This document shows, piece after piece, positions 14,492 through 32,474 of a stretch of DNA of 32,474 nt. The DNA is from a virus. Where the stretch lies: positions 1-32,474 of the IMG/VR virus record IMGVR_UViG_3300030116_001840. One strand, given 5' to 3'. The position numbers and the translations under genes were made by a program. Below the pieces are notes generated by a model, which made no database searches, was not told the origin of the DNA, and saw only the letters and a list, made by a program, of their open reading frames with translations. The number at the start of each line of letters is the position of its first letter. The first letter of the stretch is position 1.

Positions 14492-14642
14492 ATTAAAGTT
14501 TCTTCGAAGAGAAGTAGATAAATGGCAAGATGAGCTATACAGACTGGACGCTCATCCCAATGTAAAAACAAATCTCTGGGTTGCCAGAAAAGAACTACAA
14601 AAGTTTACTTCTCAGCTAAGAATAAAAGGCGTTAATATCTAA
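14460..14642 (+). CDS. last early protein, coiled-coil
   Basis: A 60-residue protein (MMQITEAQKAELKFLRREVDKWQDELYRLDAHPN...) with a heptad-like charged helix and a basic C-terminus. GAGGAAGT lies before two adjacent ATG codons, and the overlap with the HTH gene is 32 bases. Its stop codon at 14640-14642 lies in the stop region of the convergent endolysin gene. No family is recognised. Confidence 0.65.
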   Translation: MMQITEAQKAELKFLRREVDKWQDELYRLDAHPNVKTNLWVARKELQKFTSQLRIKGVNI

Positions 14643-15100
14643 ACACTTAACTCAAAGTGAGGCGCATCGATAAAAGGTCTTCTGCCTTGCGACCTTCGAA
14701 GATCAATGTAGTCAGTCATAGCTTGCTCCATTGTTCCGTCATATTCACCAATAGAGTTAATATGCCAAGCAGCTCCCCATCTCAAATGAACACCAATATC
14801 TTTAGCTGCTTCTTTCATTGCATCTGCAATATCGTCATACAGATTCAATTCCCAAGATACTCTTGGCCCAATATAAGCAACAACATCTACAGCTATTCCT
14901 TCAAGATGTTTTGACTTCATAGTCTGGCTTACTTTTTTATTAACTAATTCTAATTGTTGATCGTGAGTTCTTAAACCTCCAAGATGAGGAATACCAAAAT
15001 CAATCGGAGTTATACCAATAGCATACTTAACAACAGCTACTAAGTTCTCATCAACGCCTTCCAGTCTATCCAAGCTTCTTTGACTTAATTTAAAACTCAT
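14639..15100 (-). CDS. M15-family endolysin (L-Ala-D-Glu / D-Ala peptidase type)
   Basis: A 153-residue cell-wall hydrolase. The start ATG 15100-15098 overlaps the upstream stop as ATGA, and a further in-frame ATG at 15163 is rejected. SKHLEGIAVDVVAY gives H65 and D72, and DAPHFELSV gives H148: the three zinc ligands of the Peptidase_M15_4 group (SxHxxGxAxD and PHFE). RTHDQQLELVNKKVSQT before H65 is also typical. It cuts peptidoglycan cross-links at the end of infection, after the holin opens the membrane. There is no signal peptide, so release depends on the holin-like neighbours. It ends four bases inside the convergent early gene. Confidence 0.9.
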   Translation of the reverse strand: MSFKLSQRSLDRLEGVDENLVAVVKYAIGITPIDFGIPHLGGLRTHDQQLELVNKKVSQTMKSKHLEGIAVDVVAYIGPRVSWELNLYDDIADAMKEAAKDIGVHLRWGAAWHINSIGEYDGTMEQAMTDYIDLRRSQGRRPFIDAPHFELSV

Positions 15101-15438
15101 TTCTTTAATCCTTTCATTGTACGGATACCAAAGCTTGCAGCTATCGAAGCATACATAGCCCAACTAAACCACTGCGGAGCAGCCTGAAGATTCTCAAAAC
15201 CTTGTTTCATGTACGGTTGTAACCAAGGAACAAATGAACCTAAAACAATAGCTATGAAGCACAGAGTCCAAGCCTCGTCTTTCCAGCTGTCTGCGCTGGC
15301 CTCAATAGCTGCTTGCTCCCAGCTAATCTCACCAGTCGCAATCTTCATTTTGGTTTCAGCTTCAGCAGCTTTAACTTTTGCTTTGCTATCAATGTAAGTT
15401 GTAGCTAATCCAGCTACGCTTTGCAGTATCCCAATCAT
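15097..15438 (-). CDS. holin-like membrane protein (113 aa)
   Basis: A short hydrophobic N-terminus (MIGILQSVAGLATTYI) is followed by an alanine- and lysine-rich amphipathic part, then two probable transmembrane segments (TLCFIAIVLGSFVPWL at about 59-75 and WFSWAMYASIAASFGIRTM near the C-terminus) and a basic tail (KGLKK). ADSWKDEAW before the second segment resembles the conserved stretch of three-segment holins. It directly precedes the endolysin with an ATGA overlap. Likely holin, or a partner of the next protein. Confidence 0.72.
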   Translation of the reverse strand: MIGILQSVAGLATTYIDSKAKVKAAEAETKMKIATGEISWEQAAIEASADSWKDEAWTLCFIAIVLGSFVPWLQPYMKQGFENLQAAPQWFSWAMYASIAASFGIRTMKGLKK

Positions 15439-17135: not shown

Positions 17136-17462
17136 TTACCAAGGCGTTCCTGTGCCAGTGGTAGGGGTTTTGGATGCTGTAATCTCAGCGGCAATACCGC
17201 TCTCAACATCACTTTTATTTACTTCGGCTTGCGCCCAAGCAATACAGTTAGCCTCAGTTACGCTGTCGTATGCAATGAAGCCGTCAGCACTAGCGTCAGG
17301 TGTATGAGTTGTTACGCCATACTTTGACACTGTGTGTGTTACTGCGTCATCTCCAGAACCAACTGTTTCTGAACCTTCGCATCTCCAATGAATAACAGTA
17401 ATACCGCCATCAGATAGATTGCGTTCCACTGTAGGTATTGTCCAAGTATATGTAATTGCCAT
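17136..17462 (-). CDS. fibre-adjacent beta-rich protein
   Basis: A 108-residue protein: MAITYTWTIPTVERNLSDGGITVIHWRCEGSETVGSGDDAVTHTVSKYGVTTHTPD... The TYTW.IPT.E.......G.I...HWRC pattern is common in phage proteins next to tail fibre genes, and the whole looks like a beta sandwich. The start overlaps the tail fibre stop by one base, so it is made along with the fibre. Possible fibre chaperone or particle surface protein; function is unknown. Confidence 0.75.
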   Translation of the reverse strand: MAITYTWTIPTVERNLSDGGITVIHWRCEGSETVGSGDDAVTHTVSKYGVTTHTPDASADGFIAYDSVTEANCIAWAQAEVNKSDVESGIAAEITASKTPTTGTGTPW

Positions 17463-20400
17463 TAGTTAGCCTCCAATGCTGCTATTTTTGTTTCAAGTGT
17501 TTCAATCTTGGCCATTGCCTCTTGCAATGCTTTAATAATTATTGGGGTAGTTCTGCCATAATCAACAGCCCAAGATTTTTTTGTTACATCCTCGTCACCT
17601 TCGCTAACTGCATCTGGAAAAATGGTATGTAATTCTTGAGCAATAAACCCTGTTACTGTTTTATTCGATGTATCTGCAGTCCATTCATAATCACGAACTT
17701 GTATCTGTTTTAATGCGTCCCACTTTGAACCTGTGTCACGAATGTTTGATTTAAGACGCCTATCTGAGCTAGTTTGATAAGCAACAGAACCTGCGCCTGC
17801 TCCTTCAATTCTGCCTTGCTGTCCGCCACTATCAAAGAAGTTAATATAATTAGCGGTGCTAAAAGAGTTGTCAGCTGAAAAACCAATAGCAAGAAGTGTT
17901 GAACCACCTTCAACAGTAGAATCTTCATCTACAATCATTTGAACAGCATTAGAAGAAGTATTAGAACCACCAACAACCGCTAATCTAGTTGCATCAATAC
18001 CTCCAAATGTTGAAGCGGTAGACCCCATTAATATGACACCTGAGCTATTAAGACGAAGCCGCTCCGTAAACTGCCCAGAAGCACCAGTTAATCCATGATG
18101 ACCAATAGTTATATGGTCGCCAGTTGCAGCAACAATATCGCCTTCATCCGTAGAATTTCCGTCCACAATAAGAGCGGGTAAATTGTTAGTACCAACAGCT
18201 CTTACAGTTCCATTTACTTCTAAAGGGTACGCAGGATTTGAATCATTTATTCCAACATTGCCATTATTTTTAAAAAAAGCTGACTCTGTTACATTTGAAG
18301 GAGAACCTGAACCACCACCGTCTGCATAACGAATAGCAAGACCATCTCCTAGAGCAATAAGAAACCAATCTCTTGTTTGTCCAGTGTCACTTATAGCAAT
18401 TGCAGGACTTGAACTATCCTCAACAACTAAGGTTGCTTGACTGTTTGCATATGAAGTTGGACTGCTAGTTCCTATGCCTAATCTATTTACAACAAGTCGC
18501 ATACGCTCTGTATAAACATCAGAACCAATATTACCTGTTGTTGTGTAGAATGCTTGAGTAGAAGCCGCAGGGGAGCCAATAGCTGAACCCGCTCCACCAT
18601 TAAAATTAAATTGTGCAAAGCCACCGCCTGATGAATTTATAACAAGTTTTACATCACTAGAAGATGGGCTTGTAGTTGTTCCAATTCCAACATTACCTGA
18701 ACTATCAATACGCATACGTTCTGCAATAGACGCAAGGTCACCAGTATGAAATGTCATTGCTTCAGTTGAAGATGAGTATCCTATTCTGCCAGATGGATTG
18801 CCTGACCCACCGCCAAGAAAATCTAAATTCATTACAGATGTACTTGAAGCACTACCATTTAATGCAATAGTTTTTGTACCAGTTGCACCATCACCGACAG
18901 TTAATTGGCCTTTGTTTGCTGTTGTACCAATTAAAACATTTCCTGAACTATCAATACGCATACGTTCTGAACCACCAGTTTGGAAAGCTAAAACATCTGA
19001 ACCTGCTATATTAACTCCAGTGTTAATATCGCTTTTGCCTCGAATATAATCTAAATAAATAAAAGAGTTAAACGTAGCTGCCCCTGCATTAGACATATCA
19101 AGGGTTAAGGCAGTTACGATAGACCCATTATCTACCCCTCTAAAGATCATATCTTTATCGTTAACTTTTGACTCAATTAGTAAGTCACCTGCATTATTTT
19201 GAAACCTAGCAAATGTAGTTCCTGCATCATTGAAAAAAATATCCCCATCATCAGCATCGAGAATAATGTCCCCTGCTACATCAAGAGTAAAATCACCAGA
19301 AGTATTAGCTATGTTGCCAGTTACAGTTACACCAGAAGAGGTAGTGGCAATTTTAGCTGCGTTATCATAGTAAAGAGTTACTGCACCATTATTAGCAGCA
19401 AACAAATAGTTTTCACTGTTATCAGCATTGTTTAACTCTAAATTGTTAGCTTGTATTCTAAGATTGCCCGTCCCATTGTCTTGAATTATGCTGCGACTAC
19501 CATCATGATATATGCTTAAATCTGCATCTGCACCAAACGTTAACCTATCATCAGAAGCCCCAGAACTATCACCAAAAACAATATTATTCCCTGCGGTAGT
19601 ATTACCTATGCCAAGAACAGTAGATAAGTTTCCTGCGCCACCCCCTGCAACCTGAGCATCAACATATGCTTTAATCGATTGCTGAGTTGCTAAGTGACTA
19701 GCACTATTAGAAGCCATACTATCTTCATCTTTAATCGATGAACCACCTATTGATCCATTTAAAGTAGGGCTTGTTAAAACTTTATTTGATAAAGTTTGTG
19801 AACCTGTAAGCGTTACCACACTTGAATCAATAGAAAGAGTTGATGAAGTTGCAGTAAGACCAGTTGTAGCATTAATATTTAAAGTTACAGTCCCACTTGT
19901 ACCACCACCAGTTAAACCTGTACCTGCAATAACTCCAGTAATATCACCTGTTGGAACAGTTGCTACCTGTGCATCAACATATGCCTTGATTGATTGTTGC
20001 GTTGCTAATCGTGATGATGAGTTAGATGCCATATTATCTTCATCAAGAATAGCAGAACCCGATACATTGCCATTTAAAACAGCACTTGTAAGCGTCTTGT
20101 TTGTTAGCGTATCTGTAGTCGCTTTACCAACCAAAGTGTCAGTCGCATCAGGTAAAGTAAGTGTTCGAGTTCCAGTAAGTGTAGCAACATCAATATCTAA
20201 TGTATTACTATTTTGATAAAATCTAATCTCAGGAGTTGTTGTTGATTGTAACTGAATAGATTGTGCGCCACCATTTGTTAAGAAATCTACATAACCCAGT
20301 GCAGCTTTCATACTAATAGCACCAGCACTTGTTTCTATTGTAGTAGCACTATCAGCAAGAATCCTATTACCAGCAGCACTTATTCTAAAAGTAAACTTAC

Positions 20401-21196
20401 TTGTACCACCATCTTTAAAATATATCTCTCCACCATCAGCATCTAAAGTAATATCACCAGAAGAGTCTACTAGAACATCTCCAGAAACTAATCGAGTACC
20501 ACCTCCAGTTGCAGTAATATCAACAACGTAAGGTGATGCATTACCATCTAATAAAACCTTGCCAACACCAGAGCCTTTGTTTGACTGAAGTATTAAAGTG
20601 CCATTTTCAGAAACTATTCTTGAATCTGCATCTGTATTAGCTCTTAAAAAAGTGCCCTCCCCTGGAGTGCCAGAGTAAGCAATAGTAAGTGAGTCAACTG
20701 TTAAGTCAGCAGAAGCAGTGCTTATATTACCACTACTATCAAAGCCAAGTAATTTATCAGCACGATTTGCAACACTTGGTAATGTTAAGGTTGCATCAGC
20801 ATCCCAATCAGCAAGACGTACTGTTCTAGTATTTACATCCTTAATATCAGAAGTAATAGCTGTTAGCTTATCAAGCTGCTCGTTTAATGCAGCTCTGTTG
20901 ATTGCAGCACCACCAGTAAAATCAGTAACACGCTCAATATCAATGTTTCTAACAATCGTTATAATGTGATTGAGAGTAATCCCAGTGCCAAAGGTAATGC
21001 TACCTGTTGAGCCACTGCCACCAGTTACAGTGTAATGTGTTGTTAATGTTTTCTGCGTTACCGACCCAGATGTATCTTCTTCGAACACATCAAAGTCATC
21101 GTTGTCAAAAAACTCAAAAGGTACAGCAAACACAGTTTGACCGCTAGTTGCTGTGTACCTTACTCTTGGATCGTTATCAGATAAAGAAATAGCCAT
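17462..21196 (-). CDS. tail fibre protein with S74 self-cleaving chaperone
   Basis: A 1244-residue receptor-binding fibre. The N-terminal 150 residues (DPRVRYTATSGQTVFAVPFEFFDNDDFDVF... NIDIERVTDFTGGAAINRAALNEQLDKLTAI) are the T7 gp17-type virion anchor. The middle holds two diverged repeats (LTNKTLTSAVLNGNVSGSAI...ATQQSIKAYVDAQV and its copy) and several ERMRIDSSGNVGIGTT-type units. The C-terminal 101 residues, from about S1144 (SSDRRLKSNIRD... VTGFIAQELHTIFPDAV), are a Peptidase_S74 intramolecular chaperone that helps the trimer fold and then cuts itself off. It closes with a coiled coil. It decides host range. The late-gene motif at 21241-21251 lies just upstream. Confidence 0.93.
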   Translation of the reverse strand: MAISLSDNDPRVRYTATSGQTVFAVPFEFFDNDDFDVFEEDTSGSVTQKTLTTHYTVTGGSGSTGSITFGTGITLNHIITIVRNIDIERVTDFTGGAAINRAALNEQLDKLTAITSDIKDVNTRTVRLADWDADATLTLPSVANRADKLLGFDSSGNISTASADLTVDSLTIAYSGTPGEGTFLRANTDADSRIVSENGTLILQSNKGSGVGKVLLDGNASPYVVDITATGGGTRLVSGDVLVDSSGDITLDADGGEIYFKDGGTSKFTFRISAAGNRILADSATTIETSAGAISMKAALGYVDFLTNGGAQSIQLQSTTTPEIRFYQNSNTLDIDVATLTGTRTLTLPDATDTLVGKATTDTLTNKTLTSAVLNGNVSGSAILDEDNMASNSSSRLATQQSIKAYVDAQVATVPTGDITGVIAGTGLTGGGTSGTVTLNINATTGLTATSSTLSIDSSVVTLTGSQTLSNKVLTSPTLNGSIGGSSIKDEDSMASNSASHLATQQSIKAYVDAQVAGGGAGNLSTVLGIGNTTAGNNIVFGDSSGASDDRLTFGADADLSIYHDGSRSIIQDNGTGNLRIQANNLELNNADNSENYLFAANNGAVTLYYDNAAKIATTSSGVTVTGNIANTSGDFTLDVAGDIILDADDGDIFFNDAGTTFARFQNNAGDLLIESKVNDKDMIFRGVDNGSIVTALTLDMSNAGAATFNSFIYLDYIRGKSDINTGVNIAGSDVLAFQTGGSERMRIDSSGNVLIGTTANKGQLTVGDGATGTKTIALNGSASSTSVMNLDFLGGGSGNPSGRIGYSSSTEAMTFHTGDLASIAERMRIDSSGNVGIGTTTSPSSSDVKLVINSSGGGFAQFNFNGGAGSAIGSPAASTQAFYTTTGNIGSDVYTERMRLVVNRLGIGTSSPTSYANSQATLVVEDSSSPAIAISDTGQTRDWFLIALGDGLAIRYADGGGSGSPSNVTESAFFKNNGNVGINDSNPAYPLEVNGTVRAVGTNNLPALIVDGNSTDEGDIVAATGDHITIGHHGLTGASGQFTERLRLNSSGVILMGSTASTFGGIDATRLAVVGGSNTSSNAVQMIVDEDSTVEGGSTLLAIGFSADNSFSTANYINFFDSGGQQGRIEGAGAGSVAYQTSSDRRLKSNIRDTGSKWDALKQIQVRDYEWTADTSNKTVTGFIAQELHTIFPDAVSEGDEDVTKKSWAVDYGRTTPIIIKALQEAMAKIETLETKIAALEAN

Positions 21197-21251: not shown

Positions 21252-24200
21252 TTAGTAGCGTCCAAAACCAAGCGGAGAATCTAACTCACCCTCAATCATA
21301 TTGGTAAGTTCATTCATCTTACCTTTCCAAAACCACATTCTAGCAAAAGGTAAGTTACGAATAATCTCTTTTGTACCTTCACCAATATTGCCAGTTGTAA
21401 GGTCATAAACACCTCGCCCGATGTCTGTCGCAATACTAGGGCCAGCACCAAGCAAGCCTGTTGCAGCATCCAAAGCATCTGGTTTCTGAGGAAAACGTGG
21501 TTGAAGCACACCACCAGTAATATTAGGTCCACCTAATGCTAAGGAAGTAGACATCGCTGTATAAAACATATCTGAATATAAAGCAGCTACACCAGAGTAA
21601 TCAAAAGCTCTAGCAAACTGATCTTGAAACTCCATCTCAACAAAATCAGGAGTCTTGTATTGAAGAACCATATATCCAAGCCCCATAGACATAGCAGTAC
21701 CAATCCACTGATTTTTTAACTGACCATGACCATAAGCGGCTGTAATCTTGTTTACGGCTGCTAAACTATAGCTATAGAACTGAAATGGTAATCCAAGAAG
21801 ACCGCTTTCAACACGAGCATAGCCTTTAAACTCTACATCTTCTTTCATGCCAAACTGACGAGCAACACGCATAGGAATATATACAATACCATCTGTAATA
21901 ATTGGTTTATCTGCTGGAGTCCCCATTAATATTGTATTCATAATTCCAGAACTCAAAGCATTACGAAACGTCTGGACAGTATCAGGGCTAACTCTTGCTT
22001 GCTTTTCTATTTCAGCAATAGCCAAATCATTAATAGCATTTTCGTATGCAACCTTGTCTGCTTTTTTACGCACATCAAAACCCATATCTTTTGGCCTGTT
22101 GAGTGAGTGCATAATCTCGTGCATCTTAATGAAAGTCACATAGTCATCTGGCGTATTGATGATACCTTTTTTAATAGGTTTAATACCTTCAACTCTTGGA
22201 TTCTCCCAACCACGCTGTTCATACATAACATCTTTAATATACTCTTCATCTATGTATATTTTCTTTTCTTTGTCACGATAAAATGCTGGTTTATATCTAC
22301 CATCTCTTGCAAAAGATTCAGTTGGCCCAGAAATAACTTCAGCTCTAGTTGCTGGAAATTCAATAGCATTTGTCCAAGCATCAGTGTTTGCCATATAAAA
22401 ACCAGCTTCTGATTTTTGCCAAGGTGCATTAGCAATTTTCTGAGCGTCTTCTAAATCAATATTATATCTAAGAAGATATTCTTGCTCTTGTTTGGTTGCT
22501 TTACCCTGAGTCCATTTAATGGAATAATCAATCAAGCTATGAGATCGAACCATAGCATCAAAATCTTTGAAGATTCTGGTCAAAGGTCCAAGACCATTTA
22601 GCAAATAAAAAGGCTCTTTAGCTCTATCAAGTATATCAGACCTAAATGGATTATTATTTACATCATCAACTAATCTAAGATGCGCTGAGTTCATTAAATT
22701 ATCTAACGCTTCTCCAGCATATCTTGCTTCTTTGGCAGCTAACTTTAGCTGATTGTTTTTCATTATTGAAAACAAGCCACGAAATGTAGGACCAAGACCA
22801 TGTTCCATCATGATCTTAGCTGGCTCAGTAATTGTAGATATACCAGCAGAACCAAGGTAATTTAGCTGTGCAAGATTTCTTAATATTCTAGCTGTTGATT
22901 GCTCCCAGCTATCTGGATCACGCTGAAGACCGCCAATAACACGCTTATACAAATGGCGCATATCTTTCATAGCAGCATATGCTTTTTCTGGCGATTTACC
23001 AGCATCCATCATTTCATTAAAAGTATCATCAAGAACATCATCAATGGTGTTTCCATTGAACATACGAGCAAACTCATAACGTGCGCCTGTTCTCTGTGTA
23101 TACGCTTTCATTACAGCTATTGGATTAGTTTGAATATAATCTAAAACTAATTCATTAGGTATATCGACTAATCGATGCTTAAAGTGTTTTGACTTACCAG
23201 CACCATAATAACCTATTTCTGGATCAAGAATATCTTTTATACCTAAAATAGAAGCAACAGTTTCATCAACACGCTTAGCAATATCTTTTCTAGTTGTAGA
23301 TAATTCAACACGAGCAAATTTTCCGTCTTTATTTTTTCTAATTACAGATGGATTATTTGAATACCATTCAAAAAGAATATCTCTAAAACCATTTATATTT
23401 GCTCGAATAGCATCTTGATCCCAATATCGAGGACGAAACACTTTTTCATTAAGTGGTAATACAGGACCAGAATATTTTAAGTCTTCTAAAATTTGTTTGG
23501 CTTCGTCTATCTGGCTGCCGTAGCGCCTTATCTGCTCTTCTAATTTCATACGGTAGTCTATGTTACGAGCTTTCTCTAAACGCTTCTGAGCGGCCTCTAC
23601 GCGCCTCTCACGGTCTACTACAAACCGTTCATAGTAGGGAGTTGTTCCAATTAAGCCTTGTTCGCTAAGACGCTCTTCCCACTTCTCATAAAACTTATTG
23701 ATTTTCATCATGGCTTGAGCTTCCAAATCATCGGCTGGCTCAATGCCACGCATAGCTTTCGAGTCAACACCCTCAAGCCAAGTTTCAAAATCTTTTCTTT
23801 GAAAAGTATAGTCTAATGCTTGAGTAACACCCTTACCTGTACTTTGCCCCCAAATATTCATTGTTTCATCGTAAACTCTAACCCACTCACCTTCGAGCAA
23901 CTTAGCATTTTGATAAACAGAGTTACCTACCTTTTGACCTTGTTTGTTTGCTGCGAGTAGCAAGCCAGAGTCATTAGCTATTTTGAGTGTACGCAACTTA
24001 ACTGAGTTCGGGATAGTGTCGTCAGTAAGAATACGTTTCATAGGAGTGGTGACAGCTTTATAAAGCCAAGAATCGGTAAACAAACTTGGAGCTATATCGC
24101 CTCTAGGCTCTTCACCTTCTGGAGCAATCTGACGTTGTAGGTTAGTAATTTCTTCTTCAGCAGACTTTTGTGCAGCTATTCGCCTTTGAACAGGAATGCT

Positions 24201-24749
24201 AACTAATCCAGATATAGCACCACCAATAACAAATGCAGAACCTACATTAATTGCAGCCTCTTCTGGAGTTGCTAAAGGATCAAGAGGATAACGAATAGCT
24301 TCCTGACCAGCTACAACAGTTGCAGTCGAAGCACCGCCACGAATAACATTGCCAGCAAAACTTGCACCACGAGCAAACGGAATACCTACATAATTAATAG
24401 GATCAAATAACTCAGCGCCAAACTGAGCAATAATACCAGATGAAGCAAGTGTTTGTCGTGTCTTAATACCATCACGAACTTGCCTAATTAAATAATCCAT
24501 ATGCTCCTGATTAGTTGCCCTTAAAAGCGTAGAAGCATAAGGAGTTAAGTCCTCTGGAATATAATCTCTAGCTCTATATCCGTCTTCTGGAACAGTAGGA
24601 AACTTAGAGCGTTCATTAACAAAGCTAATTAATGGATCGTACTTATATGCTAAACTTGCACTAACTGTTTCCATAAAAGATACTTCTGGAGTAGGCTGAA
24701 CACCTTGAGCAGCTTGAATGTCACGAAGTACATTAAATCCATTTTCCAT
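21252..24749 (-). CDS. large internal virion / DNA ejection protein with HExxH motif
   Basis: A 1165-residue protein at the T7 gp16 position (last internal protein before the fibre). After a mixed N-terminus there are hydrophobic stretches (FARGASFAGNVIRGGASTATVVAG; AFVIGGAISGLVSI), then long helical regions, and QFYSYSLAAVNKI and GTAMSMGLGYMVLQY near the end. No lytic transglycosylase block was found. At residues 877-881 it has HEIMH, preceded by INTPDDYVTFIKM and followed by VAYENAINDLAIAE with E903. This is a plausible zinc metallopeptidase motif of the gluzincin type inside an ejection protein. It may act on the cell envelope during DNA entry. It starts in a TAATG junction. Confidence 0.82.
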   Translation of the reverse strand: MENGFNVLRDIQAAQGVQPTPEVSFMETVSASLAYKYDPLISFVNERSKFPTVPEDGYRARDYIPEDLTPYASTLLRATNQEHMDYLIRQVRDGIKTRQTLASSGIIAQFGAELFDPINYVGIPFARGASFAGNVIRGGASTATVVAGQEAIRYPLDPLATPEEAAINVGSAFVIGGAISGLVSIPVQRRIAAQKSAEEEITNLQRQIAPEGEEPRGDIAPSLFTDSWLYKAVTTPMKRILTDDTIPNSVKLRTLKIANDSGLLLAANKQGQKVGNSVYQNAKLLEGEWVRVYDETMNIWGQSTGKGVTQALDYTFQRKDFETWLEGVDSKAMRGIEPADDLEAQAMMKINKFYEKWEERLSEQGLIGTTPYYERFVVDRERRVEAAQKRLEKARNIDYRMKLEEQIRRYGSQIDEAKQILEDLKYSGPVLPLNEKVFRPRYWDQDAIRANINGFRDILFEWYSNNPSVIRKNKDGKFARVELSTTRKDIAKRVDETVASILGIKDILDPEIGYYGAGKSKHFKHRLVDIPNELVLDYIQTNPIAVMKAYTQRTGARYEFARMFNGNTIDDVLDDTFNEMMDAGKSPEKAYAAMKDMRHLYKRVIGGLQRDPDSWEQSTARILRNLAQLNYLGSAGISTITEPAKIMMEHGLGPTFRGLFSIMKNNQLKLAAKEARYAGEALDNLMNSAHLRLVDDVNNNPFRSDILDRAKEPFYLLNGLGPLTRIFKDFDAMVRSHSLIDYSIKWTQGKATKQEQEYLLRYNIDLEDAQKIANAPWQKSEAGFYMANTDAWTNAIEFPATRAEVISGPTESFARDGRYKPAFYRDKEKKIYIDEEYIKDVMYEQRGWENPRVEGIKPIKKGIINTPDDYVTFIKMHEIMHSLNRPKDMGFDVRKKADKVAYENAINDLAIAEIEKQARVSPDTVQTFRNALSSGIMNTILMGTPADKPIITDGIVYIPMRVARQFGMKEDVEFKGYARVESGLLGLPFQFYSYSLAAVNKITAAYGHGQLKNQWIGTAMSMGLGYMVLQYKTPDFVEMEFQDQFARAFDYSGVAALYSDMFYTAMSTSLALGGPNITGGVLQPRFPQKPDALDAATGLLGAGPSIATDIGRGVYDLTTGNIGEGTKEIIRNLPFARMWFWKGKMNELTNMIEGELDSPLGFGRY

Positions 24750-27700
24750 TACAACCCACCTGCCCCTAGACCTCTAGTAAAAGCAGAAATGCTAGGGTCC
24801 ATATCTCTTATCTTTTTTTGTAATGCAAAACCTTTAGATTGTTTTTGCTCTAAAGCATCAAGCTCAGCTTTATTTTCAGCTTCTTTCTTTTTGTAATAAT
24901 CTGATATATCTTTTTTACTAAATGTAGGCCACATAGATATACCGTCTTTCTCAAAGATTAATGGGCGCAACTCTTCATTCTCATCTACAAAGTAAGAAAA
25001 ATACAAAACACCAGCAGTGCTTTCATCTGGAGCTAAATAAACCTTTTTTTGCTCTGCTCGTCTTTCTTCAGGTGAAACAAATTGTTCTGGTAATTGACTT
25101 AAATTAGGATCAAGAGAATAATCAGAAGGTAAATTACTTTCTACAGCAGCAATAAATGCTTTTCTTTCTTCTTCATCTGGGAATTGCTTTTCTAAAGCAT
25201 ATCTTGATCGCTTTATACTACCAACAGGAAACCTTGGATCAACAATATAGGTAGACTTAGGATAATGCTGATCTTTTAAAGTTTCTAATCTAGCATTAAT
25301 TTGTTTTTTACTTTTGCCACTTCTTGCTAAATATTCAACAGAAGCAGACAGCTCAGTACCAATAATTTGATCCCCTCCAAAATAATCTGTTGCATATTCT
25401 GTTGGTGTTTTATCTCCTAAAACTAAGTCCATCTGAACACTAGACTTTGGATCATTCTGCCTTTCTACTAATGTTGTTATAATTTCATTAGCATTGCCAC
25501 CAATCGTAGTTCGTATTGAGTTTGCATCATTAAGTAACTCAATAGTTTTTTGATCTAAAGCATCCCCAAATCTATTAATAAACAATCCTGTTTTTGTAGG
25601 ATCGTTTGAAAGAATAGCAAACAAATCAAGATAACTATCTGCATTTTCTATTGGCAAACCAGAAGCAAGCTTATCCATCTGATCAATATATCCTTGAGGT
25701 GCAGCACTACGCATCAAAGAAATAACAGTGGTTTTTAATGTAGGATCAAATGTATTAAACTGGCCTAAATCAATATCTTTATTATCTAATATATCTTGAG
25801 AATATTGCCTATCATCTTTATTATTAACATCACCATTACCGCTAAGAATCCTTTTTTGATTATTTCTAAGATTAATAGCATCTTCCAATTCTTTTTCTTC
25901 AGCAGCAACGGTAGACTTTAAACCATTAATTTTACTTACTACAGCATCTCTTTGCCCTGCTTCTGTTCTCTCAAGAATATTATTACCAGCATTAATAATA
26001 TCTTCAGACATACCCTCTGTACGCTGACCACCACTATCAATGTAAATTGCAAGATTATTTAAATCACGAGAACTAGCAAACCTAGCAAAAGATTCAACTA
26101 AACCTAATGCACGTTGTTTAGTTAATCTGTTTATTTCTGATTCAGCTTGATCTGCAGTTAATTTATTTGGACCAATGCTATTCTTAACATCGTTTACTAA
26201 ACTATTGAAAGCTTCATCAGATAGACCGCCTGTCTCAGCAAGCACCCCTGCCTCAGTGATTGATTCAGATATTTCAAATCTAAATTTTTCACGTTCAGCA
26301 GCTATTCTTAAATCATTCTTAGATGCAGATAAAACTTCACGAACAAATCCAATGTCTTCTCGTGCATTAAACATATCTGATTTATAAATATCATTAATAA
26401 CCTGCTTTTGCTCAGCAGTTAAATTTGCCATGTCTTCAGGATTGCGTGTATTAAAAGCAATACGAAACTCTTCTACATTACCTTGTGCAGCAGCTTGTAT
26501 AAGAAATGGACGTAATGCTTCTTGTCGAGCATCTTTAAGATTAGACTCAAACTCAGCTCTAGTATAAGTCTGATCCGCTTTAAATCTTGCTTCTTCAGCA
26601 TCTTTGATTGCATTATAAAGATCATTAGTTTTACCGATTACTGAAGAAATAGCAGATGGGTTTTCAAAGCTAAAACCAAGTGTAGCAAACCCTGTTGCCT
26701 GAGTACCAAAGTCTAATAAACTATCACTAAACTGAAGCTCAGAAGCTCTTGATTTCTCTGCAAGCTGATCTTTTAATATCTCAGCCATATCTTGTTCAAC
26801 AGCATTATAATCAGCAGCTACGGTTGAGCTATGACTAAGAACACGTTCTATATTTGATGGCTCAACATATTTAAGAAGCTCTTTTAAATCATCTCTTAAA
26901 TCTGTAGGGACTGCACCTATAACCTCACCACGAGTACGAATAGCAAGCTCAATAGCATTTCTTTCTAATGAAGAATAAGTTCTGCTCATTAAATGCTCTA
27001 CAGCACCTCTAGCAATAGCTTCATTAATCTTTTGCTTTGCTACAACATCAGAGCCAACATCAACTAAACCTGAGTTAATACCATTTACAGTATTTGCTAC
27101 TTCACGACTAACAATAGCATCTGTTTCACTTTGTTCTTCGCCTTCTCTTGCTTTATATCCACCAGCTCGAGCAAGTGTATAAGCATCATCAGCCGCAGCA
27201 TCTACAGAAACACCTATTGATTTAGCCGCATCTTCTCTTGCTTTTGTAGCAATGCGCTCTGTAATATTTAATTTAGTTAAAGCTAAATACTTACTCCCAG
27301 TTGTCTCTATGTAAGATTTATACTTACCTTGAGCATTTTTAGACATTTCGGATATATAACTATCCATAGCCTCATCATATGCTTCTGGAGCAAATGGAAA
27401 CTTTAATGATATTTCTTGAGCTTTTAATCTAAGCTCAGTATTCATTGAGTCTTCAAAGCGTTTATCAATAACACGTTGATATGACTCAGCAGCAATCTGA
27501 CCAAATGTTGATGGAGCTTTGTATGCCTCTGGCTTACCTGTTTCTGGATTAATAGTTCTTAATCCTTTTTCTTCTACAGCTTGAGCAAGCTCAATACCTT
27601 TTTTCTGAGCTTCATCTGCAGCATCTTGATAAGCTAACTGAGCCATTGTATTAGCAGCTCTACTGATTGAACCTGCTACTTCCTGAGCACCAGCCCTTGT

Positions 27701-27757
27701 TTGAACTATACCTACTGGCTGATTAAAAACTTGCGTTCTTTGTCTTCGTACAGCCAT
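24749..27757 (-). CDS. internal virion protein, gp15-like
   Basis: A 1002-residue, almost entirely helical, charged protein (MAVRRQRTQVFNQPVGIVQTRAGAQEVAGSISRAANTMAQLAYQDAADEAQKKGIELAQ...). The opening, then long alanine- and glutamate-rich helices, and the position between a gp14-like and a gp16-like gene fit T7 gp15. These proteins leave the head with the DNA and build a channel across the envelope. No enzyme motif was seen. The C-terminal 100 residues contain lysine-rich coiled coil (KKKEAENKAELDALEQKQ). A ribosome site (GTGAGGACATAACT) precedes the ATG, two bases after the preceding gene. Confidence 0.82.
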   Translation of the reverse strand: MAVRRQRTQVFNQPVGIVQTRAGAQEVAGSISRAANTMAQLAYQDAADEAQKKGIELAQAVEEKGLRTINPETGKPEAYKAPSTFGQIAAESYQRVIDKRFEDSMNTELRLKAQEISLKFPFAPEAYDEAMDSYISEMSKNAQGKYKSYIETTGSKYLALTKLNITERIATKAREDAAKSIGVSVDAAADDAYTLARAGGYKAREGEEQSETDAIVSREVANTVNGINSGLVDVGSDVVAKQKINEAIARGAVEHLMSRTYSSLERNAIELAIRTRGEVIGAVPTDLRDDLKELLKYVEPSNIERVLSHSSTVAADYNAVEQDMAEILKDQLAEKSRASELQFSDSLLDFGTQATGFATLGFSFENPSAISSVIGKTNDLYNAIKDAEEARFKADQTYTRAEFESNLKDARQEALRPFLIQAAAQGNVEEFRIAFNTRNPEDMANLTAEQKQVINDIYKSDMFNAREDIGFVREVLSASKNDLRIAAEREKFRFEISESITEAGVLAETGGLSDEAFNSLVNDVKNSIGPNKLTADQAESEINRLTKQRALGLVESFARFASSRDLNNLAIYIDSGGQRTEGMSEDIINAGNNILERTEAGQRDAVVSKINGLKSTVAAEEKELEDAINLRNNQKRILSGNGDVNNKDDRQYSQDILDNKDIDLGQFNTFDPTLKTTVISLMRSAAPQGYIDQMDKLASGLPIENADSYLDLFAILSNDPTKTGLFINRFGDALDQKTIELLNDANSIRTTIGGNANEIITTLVERQNDPKSSVQMDLVLGDKTPTEYATDYFGGDQIIGTELSASVEYLARSGKSKKQINARLETLKDQHYPKSTYIVDPRFPVGSIKRSRYALEKQFPDEEERKAFIAAVESNLPSDYSLDPNLSQLPEQFVSPEERRAEQKKVYLAPDESTAGVLYFSYFVDENEELRPLIFEKDGISMWPTFSKKDISDYYKKKEAENKAELDALEQKQSKGFALQKKIRDMDPSISAFTRGLGAGGL

Positions 27758-27759
27758 AG

Positions 27760-28206
27760 TTATGTCCTCACTTTTTCAGCCATATATTGAGCTTCGCCTA
27801 TTGTCCCAACAGCATTAAACAAAGAAGCATAAAGCGCATTACGCCCCCTTCTTCCTTCAGCCATCGCCATCATATCAGCTCGTAAATCCTCAATATCAGT
27901 TTGTCTTGCAATACGACCAGTATCTTGCCTAGCAATTTCTTTTTGTTTTTCTAAGAAAGCTTCAACACTTCGATCTGTAGTAATATCACGACCTTGCAAG
28001 GCAAAAGCAGCAATATTAGCAGAAGTTGCTAAATCATACTCTTCTCTTCTAGCCCTTGCTTGTTGAGCAGCAGTAACTCTGTTTTGTTGTTTCTGAGTTC
28101 CTATCTGGAATTGTGTTAGTTCAGCTTCCTGTTTTGCACCTATGCCACCAAGAATCTTACCCCCAGCATTTAAAGCTGCTGCTATTATCATTGCTTCTGC
28201 TGACAT
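27760..28206 (-). CDS. internal virion protein, gp14-like
   Basis: A 148-residue protein. MSAEAMIIAAALNAGGKILGGIGAKQEAELTQFQIGTQKQQNRVTAAQQARARREEYDLATSANIAAFALQGRD shows the small hydrophobic, glycine-rich start and helical body typical of podovirus internal protein B. It lies between tail tube B and the two large internal proteins, as gp14 does in T7. It is expected to insert in the outer membrane as part of the ejection channel. TAATG overlap with the tail tube B gene. Confidence 0.82.
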   Translation of the reverse strand: MSAEAMIIAAALNAGGKILGGIGAKQEAELTQFQIGTQKQQNRVTAAQQARARREEYDLATSANIAAFALQGRDITTDRSVEAFLEKQKEIARQDTGRIARQTDIEDLRADMMAMAEGRRGRNALYASLFNAVGTIGEAQYMAEKVRT

Positions 28207-31723: not shown

Positions 31724-32474
31724 TATTAAGTCTCCTCTTAGTTATTATCTAGCAGTTCGTAAACGCCGTTGTCATCAATAACAACTGAACCCATTGACAT
31801 CATTGATGTCGCTAGGTGCGATACTTTTTCTGCTACATAGTTTACTTCAGTTTGAACATCTGAGTTCACACCAATACCTACTGCTCTCATGTGATAAGTA
31901 AAGTTCTTACCACCAGCAACAGCTGATGTTGAAAAGATCTTGAAGCCCAAGAACTCTTTCATTGTCATACCGCCAGCAAATGGTAGGTTTTGTGGCCCAA
32001 CAAAGTCGCTAGAAGCAAACTCTGTAATGTTGAACAAATCTGCAAAACCAGCTGGGGACATAGCAATATAACGCTGTCCGTCTTCTGGAATATTAGCAGT
32101 ACCAAATGTTTCAAAGGTAGAAAGAAGATCAGCTTTACTTACAGCAGAACCACCAGCACCTAACTGAGTTGAGTTAGCACCAGCATCCATAGCTGTTGTA
32201 ATAAGTTCATCAGTCTTACGACCTAAGGCAGCAGCAGCAGATTCAGCAACAGCTTGACGCTCATTGATGTTTGTTTTCAACTCGTCAAGTTTGTCGATGT
32301 ACTCAGCAGCATAGAAGTCAGACATTGTTACTTCCACATTAGTATGTGCAAGTTCCATTGGCGTGACGTTGCCGTTTCTTGATTTAGTTGTTGCTGATCC
32401 AGTTCCTATTTTTTGGAATCGAGCAACATTGCCTGACACATTCGTGGAACGAATGGTATTACGCAGTTTAGAAC
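31541..32474. repeat. right copy of the divergent terminal overlap
   Basis: Homologous along its full length to 1-934, in the same orientation. It starts inside the small capsid-associated gene, where 78 bases are identical, and ends at the window edge inside the capsid gene. The unit between equivalent points is 31,540 bases, the probable circular genome length. Confidence 0.9.
31738..32474 (-). CDS. major capsid protein (copy B), 5' end cut by window edge
   Basis: The frame is open to the right edge. It begins within SKLRNTIRSTNVSGNVARF, equivalent to residue 26 onward of copy A, so the first 25 or so residues lie outside the window; the internal GTG at 32439 is not the start. About 44 of 244 comparable residues differ from copy A. 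The largest cluster is the loop QLGAGGSAVSKAD, against QIHDTSSALEKAD in copy A, while YIDKLDELK, FVGPQNLPFAGGMTMKEF and AEKVSHL are kept. Changes are spread along the gene with an intact frame, as expected for two functional variants. Confidence 0.92.
   Translation of the reverse strand, partial: SKLRNTIRSTNVSGNVARFQKIGTGSATTKSRNGNVTPMELAHTNVEVTMSDFYAAEYIDKLDELKTNINERQAVAESAAAALGRKTDELITTAMDAGANSTQLGAGGSAVSKADLLSTFETFGTANIPEDGQRYIAMSPAGFADLFNITEFASSDFVGPQNLPFAGGMTMKEFLGFKIFSTSAVAGGKNFTYHMRAVGIGVNSDVQTEVNYVAEKVSHLATSMMSMGSVVIDDNGVYELLDNN

Follow-up and report, generated by a model that had tools for sequence, protein, structure and literature searches.

The window analysed here is the single IMG/VR virus record IMGVR_UViG_3300030116_001840, taken in its whole length of 32,474 bases. 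Its genes include those for a portal protein (Pfam Head-tail_con), a major capsid protein, and a T7-type capsid assembly protein. The virus is a podovirus, and the nearest cultured relative found in this analysis infects the ocean bacterium Pelagibacter. Two major capsid genes, both assigned to PF19821 and 82% identical over 233 aa, were located on the minus strand at opposite ends of the record (195-1004 and 31738-32439), the latter of which may be cut by the record end; the pair would be tandem paralogues if the genome were circular. The minus strand also encodes a separate M15-type peptidase (14639-15163; Peptidase_M15_4, E 9.1e-7), likely an endolysin, and a 1244-aa tail-fibre-like protein (17462-21196) that ends C-terminally in a chaperone domain, Peptidase_S74 (Pfam E 2e-13).

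Three minus-strand genes occupy the positions of T7 gp14-gp15-gp16. The gp14-position protein (27760-28206, 148 aa) gave weak PHROG matches only, to phrog_3517 'head morphogenesis' (E 0.0059) and phrog_418 'internal virion protein' (E 0.036). The gp15-position protein (24749-27757, 1002 aa), named by its position and length, had no Pfam match at E<=1 and a best PHROG match at 0.18. The last and largest of the three, the 1165-aa protein in the gp16 position (21252-24749), matched phrog_342, 'internal virion protein with endolysin domain', at E 5.6e-38, and an HMM match paired its residues 78-158 with T7 gp16 residues 294-380 (14.6 bits). The top two VIA matches of its full-length model (mean pLDDT 70) were the T7 virion core chain 9jyy_I (Z 9.3, 290 aa), which from its length is probably gp16, and the PhiM1 ejectosome 8vb2_A (Z 8.5, 285 aa); these structural matches support the gp16 assignment. 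Both sequence and model point to a homologous T7 gp16-type backbone, and homology together with gene order suggests that the protein is packaged in the virion and injected.

The phrog_342 alignment of this ejection protein begins at profile position 221 of 1235. In T7 gp16, residues 1-156 form a transglycosylase, described as phage-specific, and residues 157-228 a 'tape' (as given in the text of PMC8954989). In view of this T7 layout and the late start of the match, both N-terminal segments appear to be largely missing from the window protein. The original prediction had likewise reported no lytic transglycosylase in it, and no Pfam domain of that kind was detected in any of the three ejection proteins at E<=1.

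The ejection protein carries the motif HEIMH at residues 877-881 (22107-22121, minus strand), which comprises two proposed metal-binding histidines and a catalytic glutamate. The proposed third metal ligand, E903 (22041-22043, minus strand), lies on the next helix within AYENAINDLA. Translation of the ORF showed both features to have been placed correctly by the original prediction, and the four residues whose invariance it had put forward for checking proved to be invariant. In an alignment of 64 rows (motif-region loci and the window), H877, E878, H881, and E903, as well as Y902, were identical in all 61 rows covering the motif region, window included, while several neighbours varied; the same five residues were identical in 28/28 rows once rows at least 90% identical had been removed. 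This set is partly motif-biased, since nine of its loci had FIKMHEIM as their only exact seed. The composition of such a protein (10 H, 78 E) predicts about 0.006 HExxH by chance, and T7 gp16 has an HERLH at 559, far from the window site and without any evident surrounding domain. A lone HExxH proves little; its conservation in sequence is real evidence.

A survey free of this motif bias was carried out with the C-terminal backbone (residues 936-1110), which lacks the motif, as the query. Among the best 80 of 413 relatives, near-copies included, 63 had HExxH in the site, 15 had an empty site (flanking blocks separated by under 40 residues), two were truncated before it, and none carried a broken motif. 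The pooled loci, which contain the motif-seeded ones, yielded 202 ORFs with both flanking blocks; the 54 below 97% backbone identity comprised 45 with HExxH, eight empty, and one from Pelagibacter phage Hodr. The pattern [Y/N]E..I, third-ligand Glu included, was kept in 45/45 nonredundant HExxH copies. Loss of the motif with retention of its neighbours, named beforehand as the observation that would speak against an enzyme, was seen in 0/63 domain-bearing loci at the window site; it did occur at another site in the distant Hodr clade, in 20/20 copies that extend to the motif.

An AF2 model of residues 772-945, built with 51 sequences, had a pLDDT of about 90 over residues 802-911 and defined an inserted zincin-like domain at residues ~800-925 (21975-22352, minus strand). 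In fragment numbering it consists of strands 33-36, 51-54, and 59-62, helix 64-74, the HEIMH helix 96-112, and the Glu helix 125-145; the same elements are in place in the full-length model. The top VIA matches were PprI (8sln, Z 7.5, rmsd 2.3 over 85 aa), IrrE (3dte, Z 7.3), and, tied with them, YbeY (1oz9, Z 7.2); the IrrE/PprI matches ranged over Z 7.2-7.5 with rmsd 2.3-2.4 over 85 aa. ArdC was also matched (6sna, Z 5.6; 6i89, Z 5.5), and the remaining titles listed were mostly metallopeptidases. Z values of 7-8 are also reached by models that have no clear relatives, and values below 8 can be common; a Foldseek search of the domain against PDB was weak (best E 0.13). The argument for the modelled fold is carried by its agreement with the motif. 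The end pairs of the VIA alignments (fragment 145 = 126 in 3dte; 147 = 244 in 6i89) would put E903 on the metal ligands IrrE Glu113 (PMC5552922) and ArdC E229 (PMC7213743), by arithmetic on the ranges, provided that the last helix is ungapped and that entries and papers number their residues alike. In the model, as in the zincin superfamily, a small sheet overlies the active-site helix that bears HExxH, and the Glu on the following helix indicates, from conservation and predicted fold alike, the gluzincin type that had been proposed with E903 as the likely third ligand. The domain would accordingly be expected to coordinate a metal through these residues and to cleave protein.

Profile comparison gave a possible, low-probability link to ArdC. 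By hhalign, 41 of the 45 nonredundant copies matched 29 ArdC-type domains with a score of 28.5 (E 4.2e-4, probability 34.5%). The highest-scoring of 50 column shuffles reached 19.3, and the reversed and two backbone profiles 11.7-16.2. In this alignment the two HExxH motifs coincide, but E903 falls opposite ArdC E228, which immediately precedes the ligand E229. Scores of the domain profile against six single ArdC sequences were 12.5-26.2. The N-terminal ssDNA-binding domain of ArdC (ArdC-N) was not matched anywhere in the window protein (Pfam, E<=1).

No curated peptidase family was matched above its cut-off, and the domain is therefore classed simply as a zincin and assigned to neither PF18818 nor M78. 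A search of the window with PF18818 (MPTase-PolyVal, curated cut-off 27.5 bits) found nothing at E<=10; among 16 records this family matched the ejection protein of one, L130, below that cut-off (13.4 bits, E 7.9e-4). PF06114 (Peptidase M78, the ImmA/IrrE family; curated cut-off 22 bits) matched 0/16 records at E<=10 and was absent from the 10 Pfam families matched by the 51 members. Those Pfam matches were scattered and weak, the best (0.012) being to an unrelated family; Peptidase_M4_C was matched by 5/51 members (best 0.044) and DUF4344, 'Putative metallopeptidase', by 1/51 (0.14). The best PHROG match of the members was to a tape-measure family (0.0032; 12/51), and 'metallo-protease' phrog_87 was matched by 5/51 at 0.033. 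NCBIfam gave nothing useful for the domain. In PDB, the domain sequence profile had no match at E<=10, the full-protein profile had three (E 1.1-2.6), and Foldseek of the whole protein gave long spurious matches with none at E<=0.001. Four BFVD matches to the domain reached E<=0.001 (best 3.0e-5), all large phage proteins with no given function. A search for M78 relatives matched 3/77 genomes, with no usable HExxH stretch in those loci, too few for an M78 profile.

To locate the insert, 13 rows were aligned with MAFFT: those of the window, T7 gp16 (V01146, L220), Hodr, eight further relatives, and one relative each from a Vibrio phage and an E. coli phage. T7 gp16 is divided into TMH I (243-410), gp16-C (411-1118), which is placed in the host cytoplasm, and TMH II (1119-1290), according to the text of PMC8954989. 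The counterpart of TMH I was found at window residues ~40-190 (24180-24632, minus strand; residue 60 = T7 275, 190 = T7 408) and that of TMH II at residues ~1002-1128 (21366-21746, minus strand; 1000 = T7 1117, 1130 = T7 1292). The insert falls at T7 residue ~1065-1070, just before TMH II, where the T7, Vibrio, and E. coli rows have no HExxH. This placement depends on the multiple alignment, since only residues 78-158 are covered when the profile is matched directly to T7 gp16, and it conflicts with the structural match to the T7 core, which ends at 930 = 1273 where MAFFT gives 930 = 1075. Backbone and membrane/cytoplasmic order are the same as in T7 gp16, which has the transglycosylase and no zincin, whereas the window protein shows the reverse. 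By homology and the composite T7 model, the insert probably lies on the cytoplasmic side.

Sequence comparison showed the zincin domain to be an insert in the gp16 backbone. Both flanking blocks are kept in the 15 domain-less relatives of the survey, and one such relative, L200, aligns to phrog_342 straight across the site (57-856 to 248-1042). Run on 11 domain-less virus records, perhaps fragments, and one MAG, the domain profile found flanks only, plus one negligible match (E 7.9). The empty sites need at least two changes on a backbone-only tree, in which the empty L053 is nested among intact relatives at 98-99 SH-aLRT; the tree was built by a quick method, with 17/51 inner branches open. 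Judged from these sequences, the domain is dispensable, yet the motif is kept wherever the domain is kept at the window site. The genome-contig scan added one relative, L216 (PBGS01000051.1), domain-less and in a MAG labelled Euryarchaeota; it is possibly a phage contig binned with the MAG and says little about the host.

The domain also appears to be exchanged. L054 carries a divergent version (HELHH...YEKRIDDLA), and between L031 and L054 dS was 0.24 in the backbone vs 1.42 in the domain, which indicates swapping and looks like allelic domain replacement. Ten pairs from 30 sequences passed a saturation and coverage filter for dN/dS; seven domain values were 0.085-0.198 and three were 0.44-1.02, two of the latter involving the swapped HELHH version, and these values reveal little about selection acting on the domain. 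Extra inserts were observed within the zincin of L048, between HEIMH and YENAINDLA, and of L133, before HEIIH. By eye they resemble ADP-ribosyltransferase-like sequence. This assignment was dropped, as PF18760 matched 0/16 records and Pfam returned nothing for it.

In Hodr (L063), the family profile located the module at ejection-protein residues 260-373, with E 9.5e-13 when the entire Hodr record was searched. It lies between blocks aligning to T7 ~408 and ~510, just after TMH I and at the opposite end of the cytoplasmic region. Both motif histidines are lost (FAMKKEVYR). MKKE was present in 20/20 Hodr-clade copies reaching the motif, near-copies included, with R, K, or A at the second-His position; the E878 counterpart is kept, as is that of E903 wherever the row reaches it. 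These copies, from Hodr and its relatives L254-L264 and L302-L309, comprise 12 rows, Hodr included, and eight of 15 further rows. They were found through Hodr, at 49-99% identity, and so are the copies likeliest to share its state. The other seven of the 15 rows comprise three that leave the contig before the motif, two full-length with no detectable module, and two of the window's own family. By its sequence, the Hodr-clade module is a putative pseudo-peptidase. Hodr separately encodes a stand-alone ArdC-type antirestriction protein (L223:774-1655, plus strand; annotated as hypothetical), which matched PDB 6i89 at E 3.8e-35 and PF18818 at E 4.4e-47 and is 44% identical to an ArdC-type protein of Pelagibacter phage HTVC011P. 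The 51-row domain alignment gave no zincin-to-zincin match with this single ArdC sequence.

The clean loss of the domain in some lineages makes a core structural role unlikely, and its position makes an envelope role unlikely. This leaves an enzyme (a binder in the case of the Hodr clade) that would be presented cytoplasmically at entry. The explanation favoured here, to which we give an even chance, is that an injected gp16-like protein with a gluzincin-type insert cleaves a protein at entry, one of the host more probably than one of the phage. The zincin-bearing ejection protein would be packed in the virion and enter the cell with the DNA, the domain would refold on the cytoplasmic side beside the inner-membrane segment of the ejectosome, and it would cut a protein at the moment of entry. 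A target on the host side, defensive or regulatory, is suggested because a domain that is swapped and lost looks more like an accessory effector than like part of the core machinery, and it is ranked above self-processing for this reason.

Under self-processing, the domain would cut the ejection proteins, in the capsid or after entry, so as to release or refold parts of them. Such a role has been proposed for the zincins of polyvalent phage proteins in the text of PMC5512222, and the location of the domain, at the junction between the counterparts of gp16-C and of the second membrane segment, would suit it. However, with 15/80 relatives (best 80 of 413) domain-less, and no HExxH at this place in the T7, Vibrio, and E. 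coli relatives, ejection seems generally independent of the domain; moreover, the N4 vRNAP is packaged unprocessed (PMC5512222). Self-processing is considered unlikely.

Slightly less plausible again is a binding module, in which the fold is kept to bind a host protein, DNA, or the ejectosome and the metal site is structural and does not cleave. The Hodr clade, which has lost both histidines and kept the counterparts of E878 and E903, would accord with it. An E229A mutant of ArdC still works, the peptidase centre being dispensable for the conjugation phenotype, as stated in the text of PMC7213743; together with the Hodr module, this result implies that the fold can have a non-proteolytic job. 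At the window site, however, the full catalytic set, including the HExxH Glu, is identical in 61/61 rows, which is more than a metal-held structure seems to demand.

The suggestion that a virion-borne protease clears a path through the envelope is disfavoured. An envelope hydrolase would take the place of the T7 transglycosylase and clear peptidoglycan or a periplasmic protein, and in the three ejection proteins no transglycosylase was found and no enzyme-like domain other than the zincin was seen. But the domain maps to the cytoplasm-assigned part of gp16, and some lineages do without it. A late start in the gp16 profile is likewise seen where the site is empty (L200, from position 248), and among the closest folds are those of IrrE and ArdC, both of which work intracellularly; this role is regarded as highly improbable. 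A chance HExxH in a helical protein with no enzyme, for which the T7 gp16 motif could be cited as a precedent, is scarcely credible, being already contradicted by the invariance, the fold, the third ligand, and the presence/absence pattern.

Zincins of other delivered proteins are among the nearest known parallels to the inserted domain. The zincin-like MPTases of phage and plasmid polyvalent proteins (Iyer et al. 2017) have a three-stranded sheet, an HExxH helix followed by a Glu helix, and variable inserts between the helices (PMC5512222); the window domain resembles them in that layout and in its carrier, a protein expected to be delivered with DNA. PMC5512222 does not name T7 gp16-type ejection proteins as carriers, and the terms 'gp16', 'ejection', and 'pelagibacter' never occur in its text. 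The C1 subdomain of the N4 virion RNA polymerase, a giant podovirus ejection protein, is described as an HExxH zincin type (PMC12633501, preprint; PMC5512222), and is likened here by that description; the N4 carrier is an RNA polymerase, whereas the present one is a gp16 homologue. Going by these texts, such domains had already been published for injected polyvalent proteins and for the N4 vRNAP. No report of a zincin in a gp16-type ejection protein was found in a literature search that covered a minority of subscription journals. Within that coverage, the new elements are a gp16-type protein as carrier, insertion at two sites, the apparent swapping, and the putative pseudo-peptidase.

A broader proposal is offered tentatively and considered somewhat unlikely as a whole: that marine podoviruses inject an ejectosome with an interchangeable peptidase at the cytoplasmic mouth of the DNA channel, cutting a host defence or regulatory protein before phage expression, with the Hodr module at the opposite end as a non-cutting pseudo-peptidase that binds its target. 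The role of injected zincins has been raised and left as a prediction in the text of PMC5512222; the natural alleles described here (active-looking, empty, and dead) are ready controls for it. PMC8954989 presents proteins of the gp16 type as conduits and DNA clamps. In the phages studied here, for which the nearest cultured relative found infects Pelagibacter, among the ocean's commonest bacteria, such a protein seems to have a second role, bringing in an exchangeable enzyme module ahead of gene expression.
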